Source of the DNA: Spirosoma montaniterrae | GTDB taxonomy: Bacteria; Bacteroidota; Bacteroidia; Cytophagales; Spirosomataceae | DNA length: 64,000 nt | Reading direction: 5' to 3' | NCBI RefSeq assembly: GCF_001988955.1 | Contig: NZ_CP014263.1 | Location: forward strand, 1,984,001-2,048,000 | In this document: positions 21,893 to 50,975 of the stretch, one piece after another | How the letters are laid out: every line of letters begins with the position of its first letter | Numbering within the stretch: the first letter of the stretch is position 1 | Notes under the pieces: model-generated | Told to the model about the DNA's origin: nothing | What the model saw: only the letters and a program-made list of their open reading frames with translations | Database searches by the model: none | Made by a program: the position numbers and the translations under genes

Positions 21893-22918
21893 ATGCAAAA
21901 CGAGATTACCGACGACGAAGACGAGTTATACGAACACCACCGAATTGTGGTCGATAAAGGGCAAAGCCTGCTACGCATCGACCGGTTTCTGATGGACCGG
22001 CTGCAAAACGCTACCCGCACCAAAATTCAGGCCGCCATCGACGTCGAATCGGTGCGCGTGAACGGCAATGTTACCAAAGCAAGTTACAAAATTAAGCCGC
22101 TCGACGTTATCACGGTATCGTTGCCGCACCCGCCCCGCGATACCGACATCAAGCCCGAGGCAATTCCGCTCAACATCGTTTTTGAGGACACCGATTTGCT
22201 CGTATTGAACAAACCGGCTGGCATGGTGGTACACCCCGCCCACGGCAACTGGGACGGCACACTCGCCAACGCACTTGTCTATCATTTTCAGAACCTGCCG
22301 ACCACCCAAAACGGCGTGGCCCGGCCCGGTTTGGTGCATCGCATCGACAAAGACACGTCGGGGCTGATGGTGATTGCCAAAACCGAATACGCCATGACGC
22401 ACCTGGCCCGGCAATTTTTCGACCACAGCATCGAACGCACCTACCAGGCACTTGTGTGGGGACTACCCGAACCCGCCAACGGCACCATCACGGGCTACAT
22501 TGGCCGCTCGGTAAAAGACCGCAAAGTGCAGACCATTTACGACGACGAGACGAAAGGGAAATGGTCGGTAACGCACTACAAAACGCTGGAGCCGCTACGT
22601 TACGTATCGCTGATGCAGTGCAATCTCGAAACGGGCCGGACGCATCAGATACGGGCGCATTTTCGGCATATCGGCCACCCGCTCTTCAACGACGCCATGT
22701 ATGGGGGCGACCGCATTCAGCGCGGTATGCCCGTTGGCAGCTACAAAGCGTTCGTAGAAAATGCCTTCAAACTGCTTCCCCGGCAAGCCCTCCATGCTAA
22801 ATCGCTGGGTTTCGAGCATCCTCGCACCAAACAATGGCTTCAGTTCGATTCGCCCCTCCCCGACGACTTCCAGGCCGCGCTGGAGAAATGGCGGAAAATA
22901 GTGATGAGTGATGAGTGA
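21893..22918 (+). CDS. RluA/RluD-family 23S rRNA pseudouridine synthase
   Basis: Converts uridines to pseudouridine in large-subunit rRNA. The protein is 341 residues, with an S4 RNA-binding domain at about residues 25-85 (RIDRFLMDRL, VRVNGNVTKASYKIKPLD) and the catalytic domain with Asp152 in GLVHRIDKDTSGLMVIA, then RTYQALVWG and LETGRTHQIRAHF. The S4 domain places it with RluD/RluC rather than RluA. The last codons and stop (MSDE then TGA) are formed by the start of a GTGATGA heptamer array, so the native C-terminus may have been replaced. Confidence 0.93.
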   Translation: MQNEITDDEDELYEHHRIVVDKGQSLLRIDRFLMDRLQNATRTKIQAAIDVESVRVNGNVTKASYKIKPLDVITVSLPHPPRDTDIKPEAIPLNIVFEDTDLLVLNKPAGMVVHPAHGNWDGTLANALVYHFQNLPTTQNGVARPGLVHRIDKDTSGLMVIAKTEYAMTHLARQFFDHSIERTYQALVWGLPEPANGTITGYIGRSVKDRKVQTIYDDETKGKWSVTHYKTLEPLRYVSLMQCNLETGRTHQIRAHFRHIGHPLFNDAMYGGDRIQRGMPVGSYKAFVENAFKLLPRQALHAKSLGFEHPRTKQWLQFDSPLPDDFQAALEKWRKIVMSDE

Positions 22919-23450
22919 TGAGTGATGAGTGATGAGTGATGAGTGATGAGTTTTAAAAATAATTTTACTTTTTTCAAAATGCACAAATTATCGAAACAGC
23001 CGAGTGCTTTACAGGAGAAAACGCTGAATCTGGCGGTCAGAATTGTCAATCTTAGTCGATATTTGGCGCAGGATAAGAATGAGTATATTATCAGTAAACA
23101 GATACTGCGTTGTGGTACAAATCCAGGAGCGATGGTTCGGGAAGCCGCCAATGCTGAAACCGGCGTTGATTTTATTCACAAATTAGGCATAGCTCAGAAA
23201 GAAGCTGGCGAAACGCTTTATTGGCTCGAACTGTTACACAAAACCAATTTTTTGACTGCAAGCGAATACACTTCTATAGCTGTAGACACTGAAGAAATAA
23301 TGAAAATGCTAAGAAGTTCAATTTTGACGAAAAAGAAAAATTTGGCAACAAAAGCCGTCTCAGCCATATCACTAATTGCTATTCTCGTTTATTTTGCTTT
23401 TTAACTCATCACTCATCACTCATCACTCATCACTCATCACTCATCACTCA
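22901..23450. mobile_element. Gene-bearing inverted heptamer-repeat element, IVS-like
   Basis: A tandem array of GTGATGA (22901-22951, about seven units) and its reverse complement (23404-23450, almost seven units of ACTCATC) enclose exactly one gene, a four-helix-bundle S23-like protein. Transcribed, the arms would form a stem of more than 40 base pairs with the gene in the loop. This is the layout of the intervening sequences found in some 23S rRNA genes, which also encode S23-type proteins; here it stands between rluD-like and GNAT genes. That it moves as a unit is inference; the arms and their symmetry are seen directly. Confidence 0.55.
22979..23404 (+). CDS. Four-helix-bundle protein (23S rRNA intervening-sequence protein family)
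   Basis: About 141 residues, related to S23 proteins encoded in 23S rRNA intervening sequences and to Avd of diversity-generating retroelements. Seen: LNLAVRIVNLSRYLA, RCGTNPGAMVREAANAETG, FIHKLGIAQKEAGETLYWLE and the closing helix EEIMKMLRSSILTKKK. Unusually, a hydrophobic stretch (AVSAISLIAILVYFAF) follows at the C-terminus, which could anchor it in the membrane. An ATG at 22946 would add 11 residues but lies inside the heptamer repeat, so I prefer 22979. The function of free-standing members is not established; they form basic pentamers in known structures and may bind nucleic acid. No reverse transcriptase is nearby. Confidence 0.8.
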   Translation: MHKLSKQPSALQEKTLNLAVRIVNLSRYLAQDKNEYIISKQILRCGTNPGAMVREAANAETGVDFIHKLGIAQKEAGETLYWLELLHKTNFLTASEYTSIAVDTEEIMKMLRSSILTKKKNLATKAVSAISLIAILVYFAF

Positions 23451-23454
23451 AAAG

Positions 23455-23907
23455 ATGATTTCCATACGCCCCGGAACCCGCACCGACATTCCGCAAGCTT
23501 TCGATTTAGTTACTGAACTGGCCGTTTATGAACTTGCCGCCGATCAGGTTTCCAATACCGCCGAACAAATGGCCGAAGACGGCTTCGGGCCAAACCCGCT
23601 TTTTGGAATGCTCGTAGCCGAAGACTCTGAAAGTCAGAAAATTGTGGGCATGGCTCTGTATTATTTTCGCTACTCGACCTGGAAAGGCAAGCGGCTCTAT
23701 CTCGAAGATATTATCGTGACCGAAGCGTTTCGGGGCTACGGCATCGGTAAATTGCTCTTGGACGCCACCATCGAAATGGCCCACGAAACCAAATGCACGG
23801 GCATGATGTGGCAGGTTTTAGACTGGAATCAGCCCGCCATCGGTTTCTACCAGCAATTCGGCACCCGCTTTGACAACGGCTGGACCAACTGTCATTTAGA
23901 TTTTTAA
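23455..23907 (+). CDS. GNAT-family N-acetyltransferase (diamine/thialysine acetyltransferase-like)
   Basis: A 150-residue acetyl-CoA-dependent acetyltransferase. Acetyl-CoA is bound by the segment IIVTEAFRGYGIGKLLLDAT. N-terminal ISIRPGTRTDIPQAFDLV and VGMALYYFRYSTWKGKRLYLEDI match the spermidine/spermine and thialysine acetyltransferase branch, as does the ending WNQPAIGFYQQFGTRFDNGW. Substrate is inferred to be a small amine. The start lies four bases after the heptamer array ends. Confidence 0.87.
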   Translation: MISIRPGTRTDIPQAFDLVTELAVYELAADQVSNTAEQMAEDGFGPNPLFGMLVAEDSESQKIVGMALYYFRYSTWKGKRLYLEDIIVTEAFRGYGIGKLLLDATIEMAHETKCTGMMWQVLDWNQPAIGFYQQFGTRFDNGWTNCHLDF

Positions 23908-23922
23908 CCCGGCTGAAAACCC

Positions 23923-23930
23923 TATCTTTG
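23923..23930 (+). promoter_or_regulatory. Probable -7 element for the transglycosylase gene
   Basis: TATCTTTG, a perfect TAnnTTTG, 22 bases before the start codon at 23953. No TTG is seen at the -33 position. Confidence 0.4.
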
Positions 23931-23952
23931 CGCTTCCGAATAGTGATTGAGC

Positions 23953-26181
23953 ATGACGGATCGTCAACGTAAAGCCCTCCGTATTACCGGCTGGGTATTT
24001 TTAAGCCTATTTCTGATAGGACTGGTGGGTGCTGGTATTGCCTACTCCAAACGCGAAAACCTGTTGCGCGTAGCACTCGACCGGGCCATTCGTAAAGCCA
24101 AACGTGATTATAATCTCGACGTAACCATCGCGTCGGCCCAGTTCACCGGGTTAAGCTCCGTAGCGTTTACCGGCATTTCGGTGGTGCCGCAGAATCGCGA
24201 CAGTCTGGCCCGTATCGACCGGATAGAGGTGGGCGTTCGGCTGTGGCCGATGCTGGCAGGCAAAGTAAGTTTGTCGGCCATGACGCTCGAAAACGGGCTT
24301 ATTCAGGTGGTGAAGCGCGATTCGTTGACGAACATCGATTTCCTGATTCGCCGGAAAAAGCGCGACTCGACCGAAACACAAACCACCCGCCGGACAGACC
24401 TCTCGGACGTTGCCGAAAATCTCATCGACAACATTCTATCGAAAGTGCCTGACGATCTGAGCATCCGAAATTTAGAATTTAGGGGCATCTCAGACACAAC
24501 TACGGTTAGTCTGCTGACTGAATCGGCGGTTATCGATGATGAAGAGGTAAACTCAACCATTCGGGTCAACGGTAATTTTGCAACCTGGCACATCACCGGC
24601 ACCGCCGACCCCGCCGACCGCGAGTATGACCTGGCCCTGTTTGCCGAAGGGCAGAATGGTCAGCCGCGCCCGCTCGAACTGCCGTATATTCAGCAACGGT
24701 ACAAATTGAAACTACAGGTCGATACGCTCCGGGCAAAGTTAGACGACGTTGACCGCGACGGAAGTGAGTTTCGGATGGAAGGAGCCGGGTCGGTACGAAA
24801 CCTGCGTATCAACCACCCCGCCGTGGCCCGCACCGACGTGTTGGTGCCGTCGGCGTCGATGGAAGCCAATGTATTTGTGGGCGAAAATTACGTGGGCGTC
24901 GATAGTTCGTCGGTGCTGCGGTTAGGTGAAGTCAGTGCGCGGCCTTTCGTAAAATATACGCTCTCGCCAACCAAAGCCTATGAACTGCAAGTGCATACCG
25001 ACCCGATGGACGCGCAGGCGGTGTTCAACTCATTTCCGCAGGGCCTTTTCGAGTCGCTCGAAGGCATGCAGGTTACAGGCAAACTCAAATACGATCTGGC
25101 GTTTCAATTAGATACCGAACTACCCGATTCCGTCAGATTCAATTCTGCTTTAACGCAGGATGGTTTTCGGATTCTGAAAATGGGCCGGACCGATTTTGCA
25201 GCTATCAACCGCCCGTTTGTTTACACGCCCTACGAAAAAGGGCAACCCGTTCGCCCGATTATCGTTGGCCCCGAAAACCCTGATTTTACGCCTTTAGACC
25301 AGATTGCCCCTGATCTGCGTAATGCGCTGCTGACGTCGGAAGATTACACGTTTTTTACGCACAAGGGCTTCAACGAGAAAGCGTTTCGGGTGTCGATAGC
25401 AACTAATTTCAAGGAAAAGTCATTCAAGCGTGGTGCCAGTACGGTGTCGATGCAGTTGGTAAAAAACGCCTTCCTGAACCGAAATAAAACGCTCTCGCGC
25501 AAAGTCGAAGAAATTTTGATTGTGTGGCTGATTGAAAACGAGCGGCTGATTCCGAAAGAGCGGATGTATGAGGTCTATCTCAACATCATTGAATGGGGTC
25601 GCAACATCTACGGCATCGGCGAAGCAGCCCGCTATTATTTCGACAAAACACCTGCCGAACTGAACCTCGGCGAAAGCATTTTTCTGGCTTTTGTGGTACC
25701 GCGCCCTAAACGCGCCCTCGACTGGTTTTTGCCCGATGGCTCGTTGCAGGTTCGTAACGTGCGCGGCTATTTTAGAATTATTGGTCGGCTGATGGCTAAA
25801 CGCGGCCTGACCGCCCCTGATTCGGGTGCTTACGGCTTCTACGACGTGCGCCTACGCCCAGCCCTGCGCCGTCAAATTGCTCCTGTCGATAGCCTATACC
25901 CATCTGATAGTCTGCTGCTCGACGGTATGGAGGGTGATATTGACGATGGCGAAGACGGCGTTGGTGGTTTCCTACGTCGACTATTCAAAGGCAAGGACGA
26001 TGATAACCGGCGCGAAACCGAACCAACCACGGTTCAACCCGAACGCCCGGAGCCAGTACCCGGCGAAGTCACCCCGACCGACACAGTCAAAACCCGCAAA
26101 CAACTCCGGCAGGAACGGCGCGAACGCAAACGACGCGAACGCGAAGAACAGCGATTGCAGGAAGAAGGGACGTTGAATTGA
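23953..26181 (+). CDS. Membrane-anchored peptidoglycan glycosyltransferase (GT51) with large N-terminal domain
   Basis: Polymerises lipid II into glycan strands. The 742-residue protein has one membrane helix (about residues 10-32, ITGWVFLSLFLIGLVGAGIAY), a large extracytoplasmic region without a recognised fold (about 35-440), and a GT51 domain at about 450-595. The catalytic Glu is in LLTSEDYTFFTHKGF; other motifs are RGASTVSMQLVKN, RKVEEILIVWLIE and YLNIIEWGRNIYGIGEAARYYF. No transpeptidase domain follows, so it is monofunctional. The C-terminus is a low-complexity Arg/Glu-rich tail. The ATG at 23953 is preferred over a TTG two codons upstream. Confidence 0.88.
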   Translation: MTDRQRKALRITGWVFLSLFLIGLVGAGIAYSKRENLLRVALDRAIRKAKRDYNLDVTIASAQFTGLSSVAFTGISVVPQNRDSLARIDRIEVGVRLWPMLAGKVSLSAMTLENGLIQVVKRDSLTNIDFLIRRKKRDSTETQTTRRTDLSDVAENLIDNILSKVPDDLSIRNLEFRGISDTTTVSLLTESAVIDDEEVNSTIRVNGNFATWHITGTADPADREYDLALFAEGQNGQPRPLELPYIQQRYKLKLQVDTLRAKLDDVDRDGSEFRMEGAGSVRNLRINHPAVARTDVLVPSASMEANVFVGENYVGVDSSSVLRLGEVSARPFVKYTLSPTKAYELQVHTDPMDAQAVFNSFPQGLFESLEGMQVTGKLKYDLAFQLDTELPDSVRFNSALTQDGFRILKMGRTDFAAINRPFVYTPYEKGQPVRPIIVGPENPDFTPLDQIAPDLRNALLTSEDYTFFTHKGFNEKAFRVSIATNFKEKSFKRGASTVSMQLVKNAFLNRNKTLSRKVEEILIVWLIENERLIPKERMYEVYLNIIEWGRNIYGIGEAARYYFDKTPAELNLGESIFLAFVVPRPKRALDWFLPDGSLQVRNVRGYFRIIGRLMAKRGLTAPDSGAYGFYDVRLRPALRRQIAPVDSLYPSDSLLLDGMEGDIDDGEDGVGGFLRRLFKGKDDDNRRETEPTTVQPERPEPVPGEVTPTDTVKTRKQLRQERRERKRREREEQRLQEEGTLN

Positions 26182-26183
26182 AA

Positions 26184-26245
26184 GTGAAAAATTAAAAGTG
26201 AAAAATGCCTGCTGGTGAGCAACATTTTTCACTTTAATTTTTCAC
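26184..26245. repeat. Near-perfect palindrome, GTGAAAAAT family
   Basis: The 24-base left arm (26184-26207) starts GTGAAAAATTAAAAGTG; the right arm (26223-26245) is its reverse complement with one missing base. The trmD stop codon (26244-26242) lies in the right arm, and the plus-strand gene ends two bases before the left arm. Confidence 0.85.
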
Positions 26246-29290: not shown

Positions 29291-29408
29291 TGGCTGACGC
29301 GAGAGAGACGCAACCCTTTGCGTCTCCCCTGCGTCAGCCATCAACCCGTTGCGTCTCTCGCGCGTCAGCCATCAATCCTTTGCGTATCCCTTGCGTCAGC
29401 CATACGAC
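29291..29408. repeat. Three 31-base direct repeats plus one inverted unit, GCGTCAGCCAT family
   Basis: Direct units at 29317-29347, 29348-29378 and 29379-29408 share TTGCGT(C/A)TC and GCGTCAGCCAT; an inverted unit lies at 29291-29316. GCGTCAGCCATAC also occurs in the spacers between permease genes near 48390 and 50905. There are no spacers between units, so it is not a CRISPR array. The rest of the gap 29227-29621 shows only small hairpins. Confidence 0.75.
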
Positions 29409-38680: not shown

Positions 38681-38762
38681 TGAGTAATGAGTGATGAATG
38701 ATGAGTGATGAGTGGCTTGAGTTGGCTAAAAACTCATCGTTCATCGCTCATCACTCATCACT
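38681..38762. repeat. Gene-less inverted heptamer repeat, GTGATGA family
   Basis: The left arm 38681-38714 contains units like GTGATGA with a few changes, and the right arm 38732-38762 is the reverse complement (ACTCATC units with changes). The loop is 17 bases and encodes nothing. This is the same repeat as in 22901-23450, without the four-helix-bundle gene. It lies between divergent lolD-like and sucC genes and creates a false upstream start for sucC. Confidence 0.8.
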
Positions 38763-48355: not shown

Positions 48356-48462
48356 CGTAGAGACGGAAGATGTTCCGTCTCCCTCGCGTCAGCCATACAC
48401 CTGCGTCAGCCATACATTAAAAAACCATCCGGCGTGGAGACGGAACATCTTCCGTCTCTACA
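48356..48462. repeat. Spacer between permease genes 1 and 2 with two GAGACGGAA hairpins
   Basis: GAGACGGAA/TTCCGTCTC hairpins at 48360-48381 and 48437-48458 flank GCGTCAGCCATAC copies. The spacer is nearly identical to 50875-50975, including CATTAAAAAA and CATCCGGCG. The gene start ATG is 18 bases after. Confidence 0.85.
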
Positions 48463-48480: not shown

Positions 48481-50874
48481 ATGTTCCGAAACTATTTCAA
48501 AATCGCTTTTCGTAGTCTTTGGAAAAACCGTGTTTATAGCGGTATCAACGTTGTTGGCCTGGCGGTGGGGCTGGCAGCTTGCCTGCTCATTACGCTCTAC
48601 GTAGCCGACGAACTCAGCTACGACCGTTACCACAAACGCGCCGACCGTATCTATCGAGTGGTTCATCGGGCAACGTGGGAAGGCGGCAGCATGAACCTCG
48701 CGCCCACCTCGGCTCCCTACGCGCCGACGCTCAAACAGACGTACCCCGAGATTGAACAGGCCGTGCGTATACTGCCTGAAGGCGGGGGAATCATTCAGTA
48801 CGGTACTACCAAAGTTGAGGCCGAAGACATCGCCTTTGCCGACCAGAATCTGTTTCAGGTGTTCAGTTATTCGTTTCTGCACGGCGACCCCAACATGGCC
48901 CTCAGCAAGCCTCATTCAATTGTTCTTACGCAAACATTGGCTGCCCGCCTGTTTGGCGATGTAGCCAGTGCTATGAGTAAAACTGTACTGTTTGAGAACA
49001 ACTTTCCGAATGTGGTAACAGGAATTATCAGCGACATGCCCGCCAATTCGCACGCCCGGTTCAGTGCCCTGCGTTCCTTCTCGACGGGTTTCACGAGCGG
49101 ATGGCAGCAATTCAATCTACACACGTACCTACTCTTGCAGGAAGGGGCTGACCCGAAAAAAGTAGAAGCTAAATTCCCGGCTTTCTTCGAGCGGTACATC
49201 AAGCCCGAAGTGGGGAATGTTGCCTATGAGATGAGCCTACAACCGCTCACGTTTATTCACCTGCGTTCCAACCTGGATTATGAATTAAGCCCCAACGGCA
49301 GCTACCGCACGGTATCGGTATTTGCCATTATTGCGGGTTTGATTTTGTTGCTGGCCGGGATCAACTACATCAATTTAGCCACAGCCCGCTCGTCCATCCG
49401 GTTGCGCGAGGTGGGCGTTCGGAAGGCAGTGGGGTCAGGGCGGGGCCAACTGGCAGGGCTTTTTCTGATTGAAACATCACTGCTGACAGTATTGGCCACT
49501 ACGTTGGGCGTTGGGCTGGCCTACGCGCTGATGCCTTTCTTCAATCAGCTTACGGGCAAAGAACTATCTATGTGGCGATTCGGGACAGGATATAGTATGC
49601 TAATTTTGGTCGGATTTGCCGTGATAACGAGCCTGTTGAGCGGTACGTATCCGGCACTGTTTTTGTCGGGGTCGCGCACCGTAGCGGCCCTGCGCGGCCA
49701 GATGGGCAGTCAATTGGCGACGATTATGTTTCGGAAGTCACTCGTTACGTTTCAGTTCGCCATTACGGTCGCGCTCATAGCCGCGTCGGGCATCATCTAC
49801 CAGCAATTGCAGTTCGCGATGAATAAATCGCTTGGTTTCAACAAAGACCAGGTGCTGACCTTCCATCTGCACGACGATGAAACGCGCACTAAAATTCCGG
49901 TCCTTAAAGCCAAACTGCTACAAAGCCCGCTCATTGAGGACGTTGCAGTAGCGAGCAATCCTATCGGTACGAACAACTTAGGCGGGGGTGGCTATTATTT
50001 TGAGATTGACGGTAAAATGACAACGTCGTCTAAAATCATCCACAGCATCATGGTAGACGGCGACTTCTTGAAAACGATGGAAATTGGCTTAGTGGAGGGC
50101 CGGAGTTTTTCGAATACCATCCCCGCCGACCGCTATAATGCCATTCTGGTCAATGAAACGTTGGTGAAGGAACTGGGCTGGAAAGACCCAATTGGCAAAC
50201 GGGTAAAGTTCTACGTCGATGACAAGGGTACGCAGGCCGAACGCCGGGTAGTGGGCATAGTGAAGGACTTCCATACCCATTCGCTACAACACAAAATTGA
50301 ACCGCTGGCTTTGCAGATGCCCCCCTCTGCCGACGAGCAGGACAACGTGTATATCAGAATAAGGGCGGGCCAAACGGAAGCCGCGTTAGCATTCATCCAG
50401 AAAACATATGAGCAGTTTGAACCGGGCGGGGTATTCGACTACCAGTTTCTGGACCAGAATTTTGCCCGACAATACACCAATGAGCAGAACCAAAATAATC
50501 TACTCCTGATCTTCACGGCCTTAGCCATTTTCATTGCCTGCCTCGGTCTCTTTGGCCTCGTCACGTTCACTGCCGAACAGCGCACCAAAGAAATTGGTGT
50601 TCGAAAAGTGCTGGGAGCCAGCGTAATCAGCATCGTAGCCTTGCTCTCAAAAGAGTTTTTGAAATTAGTGCTGATCGCCATCATGATTGCATCACCTTTA
50701 GCCTGGTATGCCATGAATCGTTGGCTACAAGGTTTTGCCTACAAGATCGACATTTCGTGGTGGATGTTCGTGCTGGCGGGTCTGCTGGCGGTGGGCATTG
50801 CCCTGCTGACGGTGAGCTTCCAGAGCATCAAAGCCGCCCTGATGAACCCGGTGAAGAGTTTGCGAAGCGAATAG
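48481..50874 (+). CDS. MacB/FtsX-type ABC transporter permease
   Basis: A 797-residue permease with the same architecture as the previous gene: MFRNYFKIAFRSLWKNRVYS, a periplasmic MacB-like domain, FtsX core 1 with ATARSSIRLREVGVRKAVGS, a second periplasmic domain, and FtsX core 2 with FTAEQRTKEIGVRKVLGASV and the ending KAALMNPVKSLRSE. Its final 90 or so bases are nearly identical to those of permease 1, while the periplasmic domains differ strongly, suggesting that the substrate-contacting parts have diverged or that the 3' ends are being homogenised. Confidence 0.92.
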   Translation: MFRNYFKIAFRSLWKNRVYSGINVVGLAVGLAACLLITLYVADELSYDRYHKRADRIYRVVHRATWEGGSMNLAPTSAPYAPTLKQTYPEIEQAVRILPEGGGIIQYGTTKVEAEDIAFADQNLFQVFSYSFLHGDPNMALSKPHSIVLTQTLAARLFGDVASAMSKTVLFENNFPNVVTGIISDMPANSHARFSALRSFSTGFTSGWQQFNLHTYLLLQEGADPKKVEAKFPAFFERYIKPEVGNVAYEMSLQPLTFIHLRSNLDYELSPNGSYRTVSVFAIIAGLILLLAGINYINLATARSSIRLREVGVRKAVGSGRGQLAGLFLIETSLLTVLATTLGVGLAYALMPFFNQLTGKELSMWRFGTGYSMLILVGFAVITSLLSGTYPALFLSGSRTVAALRGQMGSQLATIMFRKSLVTFQFAITVALIAASGIIYQQLQFAMNKSLGFNKDQVLTFHLHDDETRTKIPVLKAKLLQSPLIEDVAVASNPIGTNNLGGGGYYFEIDGKMTTSSKIIHSIMVDGDFLKTMEIGLVEGRSFSNTIPADRYNAILVNETLVKELGWKDPIGKRVKFYVDDKGTQAERRVVGIVKDFHTHSLQHKIEPLALQMPPSADEQDNVYIRIRAGQTEAALAFIQKTYEQFEPGGVFDYQFLDQNFARQYTNEQNQNNLLLIFTALAIFIACLGLFGLVTFTAEQRTKEIGVRKVLGASVISIVALLSKEFLKLVLIAIMIASPLAWYAMNRWLQGFAYKIDISWWMFVLAGLLAVGIALLTVSFQSIKAALMNPVKSLRSE

Positions 50875-50975
50875 CGTAGAGACGGAACATCTTCCGTCTC
50901 CCTCGCGTCAGCCATACATTAAAAAAACCATCCGGCGGGGAGACGGAACATCTTCCGTCTCTACACGGCACTCCC
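50875..50975. repeat. Spacer between permease genes 2 and 3, near copy of the previous spacer
   Basis: Contains the hairpins GAGACGGAA/TTCCGTCTC near 50879-50900 and 50940-50961, one GCGTCAGCCATAC and the CATCCGGCG stretch. It lacks one GCGTCAGCCATAC unit compared with 48356-48462. The hairpins lack T-runs. Confidence 0.85.

Follow-up and report, generated by a model that had tools for sequence, protein, structure and literature searches.

Free-standing S23 genes between inverted tandem repeats point to a two-part repeat system

How does a gene of the S23 family, which is known from intervening sequences (IVS) of 23S rRNA, come to stand between two inverted heptamer arrays outside any rRNA gene, and what could it do there? 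This question is raised by an element found in a 64,000-nucleotide stretch of Spirosoma montaniterrae (RefSeq assembly GCF_001988955.1, contig NZ_CP014263.1, positions 1,984,001 to 2,048,000). The whole stretch is called the window, and the positions given below are counted from its first letter. The finding is wider than this one locus and suggests a repeat system in two parts, made of S23 genes bracketed by short inverted tandem repeats and of gene-less hairpins carrying the same units, for which no prior description was found in the open-licence literature without preprints.

The S23 element of the window

The element opens with a left arm of 7.4 AGTGATG units (22900..22951, plus strand) and closes with its reverse complement, a right arm of 6.7 ACTCATC units (23404..23450, plus strand), all units being perfect in both. 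The arms can pair over 45 nt at 100% complementarity, or over 53 nt at 96%, and the predicted RNA fold of positions 22895-23455 (-183.5 kcal/mol) is a single long arm-arm stem enclosing an S23/four-helix-bundle gene of the PF05635 family (22979..23404, plus strand). This gene encodes 141 aa from its ATG codon, an alternative GTG start being possible at 22943, and the right arm starts at its stop codon. On the left, an RluD-like pseudouridine synthase gene of the host (21893..22918, plus strand) ends with its stop codon inside the arm; on the right, a host GNAT acetyltransferase gene (23455..23907, plus strand) follows directly past the repeat. A previous reading of this DNA, made from the sequence alone, had described an S23-type gene sealed in a heptamer inverted repeat, a stem of more than 40 base pairs with an open frame in its loop, and a location outside rRNA, and these three points are borne out by the arms, the fold and the flanking genes. 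It had also placed the edges of the repeat at the stop codons of an rluD-like and of a four-helix-bundle gene; the left arm does overlap the former (at 22918), while the right-hand neighbour is the GNAT gene. Two of the 54 genes of the window have an inverted-flank score of at least 30, namely the S23 gene and one lying inside an unrelated palindromic pair.

PF05635 is the sole Pfam match of the open reading frame (ORF) between the arms (3.1e-21, 76 bits, for a curated cut-off of 33.8), and the protein is also recognized by TIGR02436 (1.5e-24, 86.3 bits, cut-off 24). Modelled as a monomer, it has the four-helix-bundle fold of the solved PF05635/TIGR02436 members. The titles of the S23 structures 2gsc and 2rld present them as hypothetical or of unknown function; the 2rld entry comprises five chains, and Xcc0516 is described as five bundles in the title of a reference cited in PMC10053308. 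The last helix of the window protein is lengthened by a hydrophobic C-terminal extension (23340-23404), which the sequence-only reading had singled out as unusual. This tail is absent in all nine of the nearest S23 relatives compared (9/9) and is, to judge from these sequences, a peculiarity of this genome's copy and no family trait.

Association of S23 genes with inverted tandem repeats

The relation between gene and repeat was quantified by a cis score, for which the two flanks of an S23 unit were compared and their best inverted match was taken, with a threshold of 30. In the genome of the window (5.8 Mb, one contig), PF05635 has four matches, and all four genes lie inside inverted arrays of 7-8 nt formed by four differing units, AGTGATG, AGTGAAA and octamers of the GTTGTAAA and TTGAATGA type. 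The family is present in 35 of 36 congeneric genomes, where 73 of 99 S23 units score at least 30, against 9/99 for mispaired flanks, 0/99 for shuffled flanks and 18/182 for neighbour genes, several of these 18 being second S23 genes within the same locus. A second set consisted of named loci, drawn as 80 of at least 588 pattern matches and spanning Acidobacteria, Planctomycetes, Firmicutes, Gammaproteobacteria, candidate phyla and others. After removal of four with short flanks, 54 of the 76 usable loci reached the threshold, the controls giving one for mispaired flanks, one for shuffled flanks and 7 among 74 neighbour genes. In a phylum sample, S23 genes occur in 235 of 296 genomes, and the threshold is reached by 14 of the 30 units in the best-scoring 30 loci, to which the examination was confined. 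Bracketing of S23 genes by short inverted tandem arrays is a general phenomenon that extends over many phyla, and the excess over other genes that the sequence-only reading had proposed to look for is found in both the congeneric and the named loci.

The bracketed units (142 of 205) share several properties. Their best period is 7 in 88 of them, 8 in 36 and 9 in 8, their median arm length is 33 nt, and G exceeds C in the left arm of 134/142 regardless of the direction of the gene. The unit differs between S23 proteins, AAAGAGCG and AGGAGTT being those of proteins other than the one associated with AGTGATG. When the 85 units remaining after exclusion of HMM scores <40 or arm scores <26 were compared, unit and S23 subfamily were correlated (rho 0.495, 0/500 permutations), a correlation that linkage alone may produce. 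A comparison of own arms with same-clade arms (41 vs 25.7, 77/80) was left unused, being biased by the fact that the arms had been picked by their own fit.

Some loci stand out by their architecture. A Terriglobia bin (L195) carries 22 perfect AGTTCTC units on either side of its S23 gene, and in a Planctomycetota bin (L203) the arms reach ~240 nt with GGTGGAC-type units. Low-scoring S23 genes with octamer arms occur in pairs ~1.6-1.7 kb apart in several congeners (L101, L105, L109, L118, L123, L267).

The rluD-GNAT site in related genomes

The region downstream of rluD was read in 35 of the 36 congeneric genomes. An intact S23 gene with arms is located there in four of them (G000, G003, G008, G016) and a decayed gene with retained arms in three (G001, G014, G021); the sequence-only reading had regarded a gene conserved in place without repeats as contrary evidence, and no such case was seen at this site. 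The empty sites that it had suggested looking for in relatives do exist, since 28/35 regions contain neither S23 gene nor remnant between rluD and GNAT. In 19 of the 23 gene-less regions measured, the end of the RluD match is separated from GNAT by 50-130 nt, and in 4 of the 28 (G012, G018, G025, G032) the site is occupied by a gene-less hairpin of another unit. The spacers of congeners without the gene have too little sequence in common with the window locus for a target-site duplication to be read by eye.

The three genomes with a decayed gene group together as a single clade in the RluD phylogeny and contain 1, 4 and 2 strict copies of the ARTGATG unit, while G003, G008 and G016, with an intact gene, contain 78, 110 and 58. 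A single old insertion may or may not underlie the genes of G000 and of these last three; their S23 proteins are 49-55% identical, and G000 stands apart on the RluD tree. Related S23 genes are found at two more sites, each position being held in two to three species (G011/G017 and G034/G009/G020). S23 genes retained in place across species in this way seem to move seldom and to stay long.

Gene-less hairpins

The exact sequence AGTGATGAGTGATGA occurs 165 times in the genome of the window, against 0 for the reversed pattern, and 11 of the 165 occurrences are accounted for by the arms of the window locus. Fifteen sites of this genome were read. Nearly all are intergenic hairpins of ~80-110 nt with the unit first and its complement second, near stop or start codons, the exceptions being a degraded right arm (L017) and an irregular site (L034). 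Two gene-less hairpins belong to the window itself, neither assigned to a strand: one has imperfect AGTGATG-type arms (38681..38762, arms at 38681-38714 and 38734-38762), and the other (26176..26245, the right arm continuing beyond 26245) has arms of the AGTGAAA type, the unit that flanks a different S23 gene (L002) in the same genome. The arms of AGTGATG gene-less hairpins contain four full units in 20/27 cases.

A core recurs inside these hairpins. GCTGACGC or GCGTCAGC is found in 7 of the 15 sites, with both in two, and GCTGACGC and/or GCGTCAGC in 7/7 of the AGGAGYK hairpins fetched from genome G007. The pattern GCTGACGC...GCGTCAGC is present in 29/36 genomes. Examination of one locus per genome revealed many kinds of unit in the arms outside the core, with a median stem of 30 nt, or 3.9 units, in 21 loci and no outer stem in 8/29. 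Once two further loci without S23 arms in their genome had been set aside, 19 remained for comparison. When genomes were ranked by the similarity of their S23 arms to the arms of the core hairpin, the genome of the hairpin itself came at a median of 4 among 33 (permutation p 0.0002), and it was not the best match in most of the 19 loci.

Copy number and the matching S23 gene

Three units were counted in the 36 genomes, a genome being scored as having the gene when one of its S23 genes bears the unit in both arms. The median number of ARTGATG copies is 69.5 in the 8 genomes with the gene and 4 in the 28 without it; the figures are 74 (11 genomes) versus 15 (25) for AAAGAGYG, and 36 (7) versus 0 (29) for AGGAGYK. 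One of these last seven is a false call, as G000 was scored as an AGGAGYK genome with two mismatches allowed, an error also carried into the phylogenetic regression. This regression, controlled by a one-gene RluD tree of 35/36 genomes (G028 has no RluD row), gave slopes of 0.96 log10 copies for ARTGATG (p 5e-7), 0.40 for AAAGAGYG (p 0.024) and 0.84 for AGGAGYK (p 7e-6). The reversed control is unclean for AGGAGYK (25 vs 142 in G007), and G015 bears an AGGAGYK gene with as few as 3 copies.

Relics of ARTGATG persist in genomes lacking the gene, where they are fewer and more degenerate. With a relaxed count allowing 3 mismatches over three units, the strict/relaxed ratio is 0.20 in the 18 genomes without the gene that have at least 20 relaxed copies and 0.38 in the 8 genomes with it (p 1e-4). 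Within the genus, the copies of a unit are more numerous and better kept where an S23 gene bearing that unit is present. The interpretation offered in the sequence-only reading is partly supported by these results, as the repeat of the element belongs to a dispersed family whose copy number tracks the gene; the use of the stem for excision or insertion, also suggested there, is a conjecture.

Outside the genus, TTAGTGR arrays were counted in ten genomes of named S23 loci, two of which had been picked for an S23 gene with such arms. A Thiohalocapsa genome gave 9 hits, and in G337, whose array reads alike in both directions, the reversed control is as high as the count. The evidence for gene-less copies beyond the genus is mixed and does not establish their dispersal there.

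Comparison with known systems

The Coxiella 23S rRNA IVS, as presented in PMC4990558, has a 28-bp stem with two to three tandem heptamers just before the S23 ORF and is excised by RNase III. The window locus shares with it an S23 ORF flanked by complementary, stem-forming ends. It differs in its position between rluD and GNAT instead of within an rRNA gene, in its long perfect tandem arrays and in having gene-less relatives genome-wide. A search of positions 15000-45000 of the window against Rfam at gathering scores gave no match. A scan of 211 S23 loci with five landmark strings of 23S rRNA, one mismatch being allowed, gave three isolated single hits and no rRNA-like locus.

REPIN/RAYT systems are described, in PMC3116915 and PMC8049555, as dispersed intergenic inverted doublets that form hairpins and are tied to a kind of gene matching the kind of repeat. 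Such dispersed intergenic doublets are also what was read at the 15 sites of the present genome. The gene, however, encodes here an S23 four-helix-bundle protein where RAYT is a Y1 tyrosine transposase, and the arms are tandem arrays of 7-9 nt. The TAACTGA-type heptamer arrays, which PMC4679880 describes as dispersed intergenic tandem 7-mers of several phyla with no evident transfer mechanism, resemble the present repeats in being dispersed, intergenic and made of tandem 7-mers, but they are chiefly direct repeats located upstream of genes; the terms 'S23' and 'four helix' have 0 occurrences in that text. The Avd protein of diversity-generating retroelements (PDB entries 8ub7 and 4dwl) serves a reverse transcriptase (RT), according to PMC10053308, whereas no RT is encoded by the four genes annotated from 21893 to 26181, which belong to the pseudouridine synthase, S23, GNAT and transglycosylase families of Pfam. 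An insertion sequence is equally distinct, as the element contains no transposase and its ORF matches PF05635 alone. The system is REPIN/RAYT-like in its organisation and rRNA-IVS-like in its gene and stem, and it fails one defining feature of each. Beyond gene tables and passing mentions, no earlier account of a link between S23/four-helix-bundle proteins and tandem or inverted repeats was found in the literature searched; the tandem heptamers and stem of the Coxiella IVS are the one earlier sign of it that was found.

Interpretation

The explanation preferred here, with a probability of roughly 0.6, is that free-standing S23 genes are the master loci of dispersed tandem-unit hairpins, in an organisation resembling RAYT/REPIN where a protein of the Avd/S23 fold would replace the nuclease. 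One part would be the S23 gene, bracketed by inverted arms in which a unit of 7-9 nt is repeated a few times in tandem, the unit varying with the S23 subfamily; the other would be the intergenic hairpins that lack the gene and have this unit in their arms, in this genus often around a GCTGACGC and/or GCGTCAGC core. The S23 protein, which has the fold of Avd and of the pentameric S23 structures, would recognise the tandem units of its own kind, either as RNA or as single-stranded DNA (ssDNA), and would thereby protect the hairpins or copy them to new intergenic places with enzymes borrowed from the host or from reverse transcription. The master genes would rarely move and would long persist in place, and the hairpins would erode once the gene decays. 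Contiguous units, G-rich 5' arms and the matching of unit with subfamily fit the idea of a pentamer reading tandem units. A correspondence of one unit per subunit is put forward as a hypothesis only loosely met by the unit numbers. As Avd acts in the service of a reverse transcriptase, the first guess for the copying step is a route through RNA that borrows an RT; ssDNA copying at replication may be an alternative route. The binding of the window protein to its own stem, which had already been suggested from the sequence, is plausible. A bolder version, to which somewhat less than even odds are given, holds that free-standing S23 proteins, which are spread over many bacterial phyla, guard or mobilise tandem-unit hairpins in a unit-specific manner, forming a previously undescribed nuclease-free counterpart of RAYT/REPIN; their pentamer would read several tandem units of 7-9 nt in RNA or ssDNA, with roughly one unit for each subunit, and the rRNA IVS and Avd would be offshoots.

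Several observations weigh against the master-locus explanation, and some of them favor a rival in which the spread of the hairpins is due to another factor, such as replication slippage or an unrelated transposase or RT, and the S23 genes settle or survive inside them as passengers. One core is common to hairpins with many kinds of arm and lies near only 11/108 S23 units, so that the gene-less hairpins are not simply S23 elements from which the gene was deleted. G006 keeps 62 strict and 259 relaxed ARTGATG copies with no matching S23 gene found, and may represent a recent gene loss, an assembly gap or a true counter-example; G016 and G018 are likewise rich in AAAGAGYG, the unit with the weakest link of the three, with no matching gene found. 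TTAGTGR hits are also present in genomes whose fetched S23 locus bears a different unit. Clear arms are missing in 26/99 congeneric S23 units (<30) and in 16/30 of the phylum sample, and the copy-number test is limited to three units, one genus and a one-gene tree. In a Ruminococcus genome, 6/6 TTAGTGR hits lie at the S23 gene itself, with no gene-less copies. This last case is also unfavorable to passenger genes, as it indicates that the arms come with the gene. The passenger explanation also has to face copies that track the S23 gene unit by unit and degrade without it, and RAYT as the driver was rejected, the three Y1 transposase (Y1_Tnp) genes of the genome having no AGTGATG array in their loci. 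It is considered unlikely, while remaining the strongest of the rivals.

A smaller share of belief goes to the view that S23 is a domesticated RNA-binding regulator attached to tandem units in transcripts, the hairpins being regulatory or RNase III processing sites and not mobile units. Their intergenic position near stop or start codons agrees with this view, as do the S23 genes holding their position across species at several sites and the cleavage by RNase III of rRNA intervening sequences with S23 ORFs, reported in PMC4990558. Copy numbers ranging from 0 to hundreds among congeners, the turnover of units between genomes and the decay of the gene in whole clades are difficult to reconcile with it; regulation and the master-locus organisation could nevertheless be combined. 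Hairpins are common in these genomes, and with palindromic intergenic repeats so abundant some gene could fall between two of them by chance. This explanation was rejected by the mispaired, shuffled and neighbour flank controls of the congeneric and named loci, the four differing units at the four S23 genes of the genome also speaking against it, and its likelihood is negligible.

Under the master-locus explanation, the arms of each S23 gene would contain a candidate binding site for its own protein, and both the function of S23 and the spread of heptamer arrays become testable. If the dependence of the copies on the gene holds true, it would reveal a system that spreads or keeps repeats without a nuclease of its own, and would give hints at the origin of the rRNA intervening sequences and of Avd.

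Other repeats of the window and its genome

One of the Y1_Tnp genes of the genome (L266, C1:3915248-3915523) lies amid long inverted palindromes with a flank score of 136, and may belong to a separate RAYT-like pair. In the window, an inverted pair of ~30 nt (GTAGAGACGGAAGATGTTCCGTCTC...) at 48357-48387 and 50935-50964 belongs to a separate repeat family with a relative elsewhere in the genome (L296), and encloses a gene (48481-50874) whose product presumably resembles an FtsX/MacB-type permease. A 31-nt tandem repeat (CAACCCTTTGCGTCTCCCCTGCGTCAGCCAT) is present in three copies at 29311-29403.
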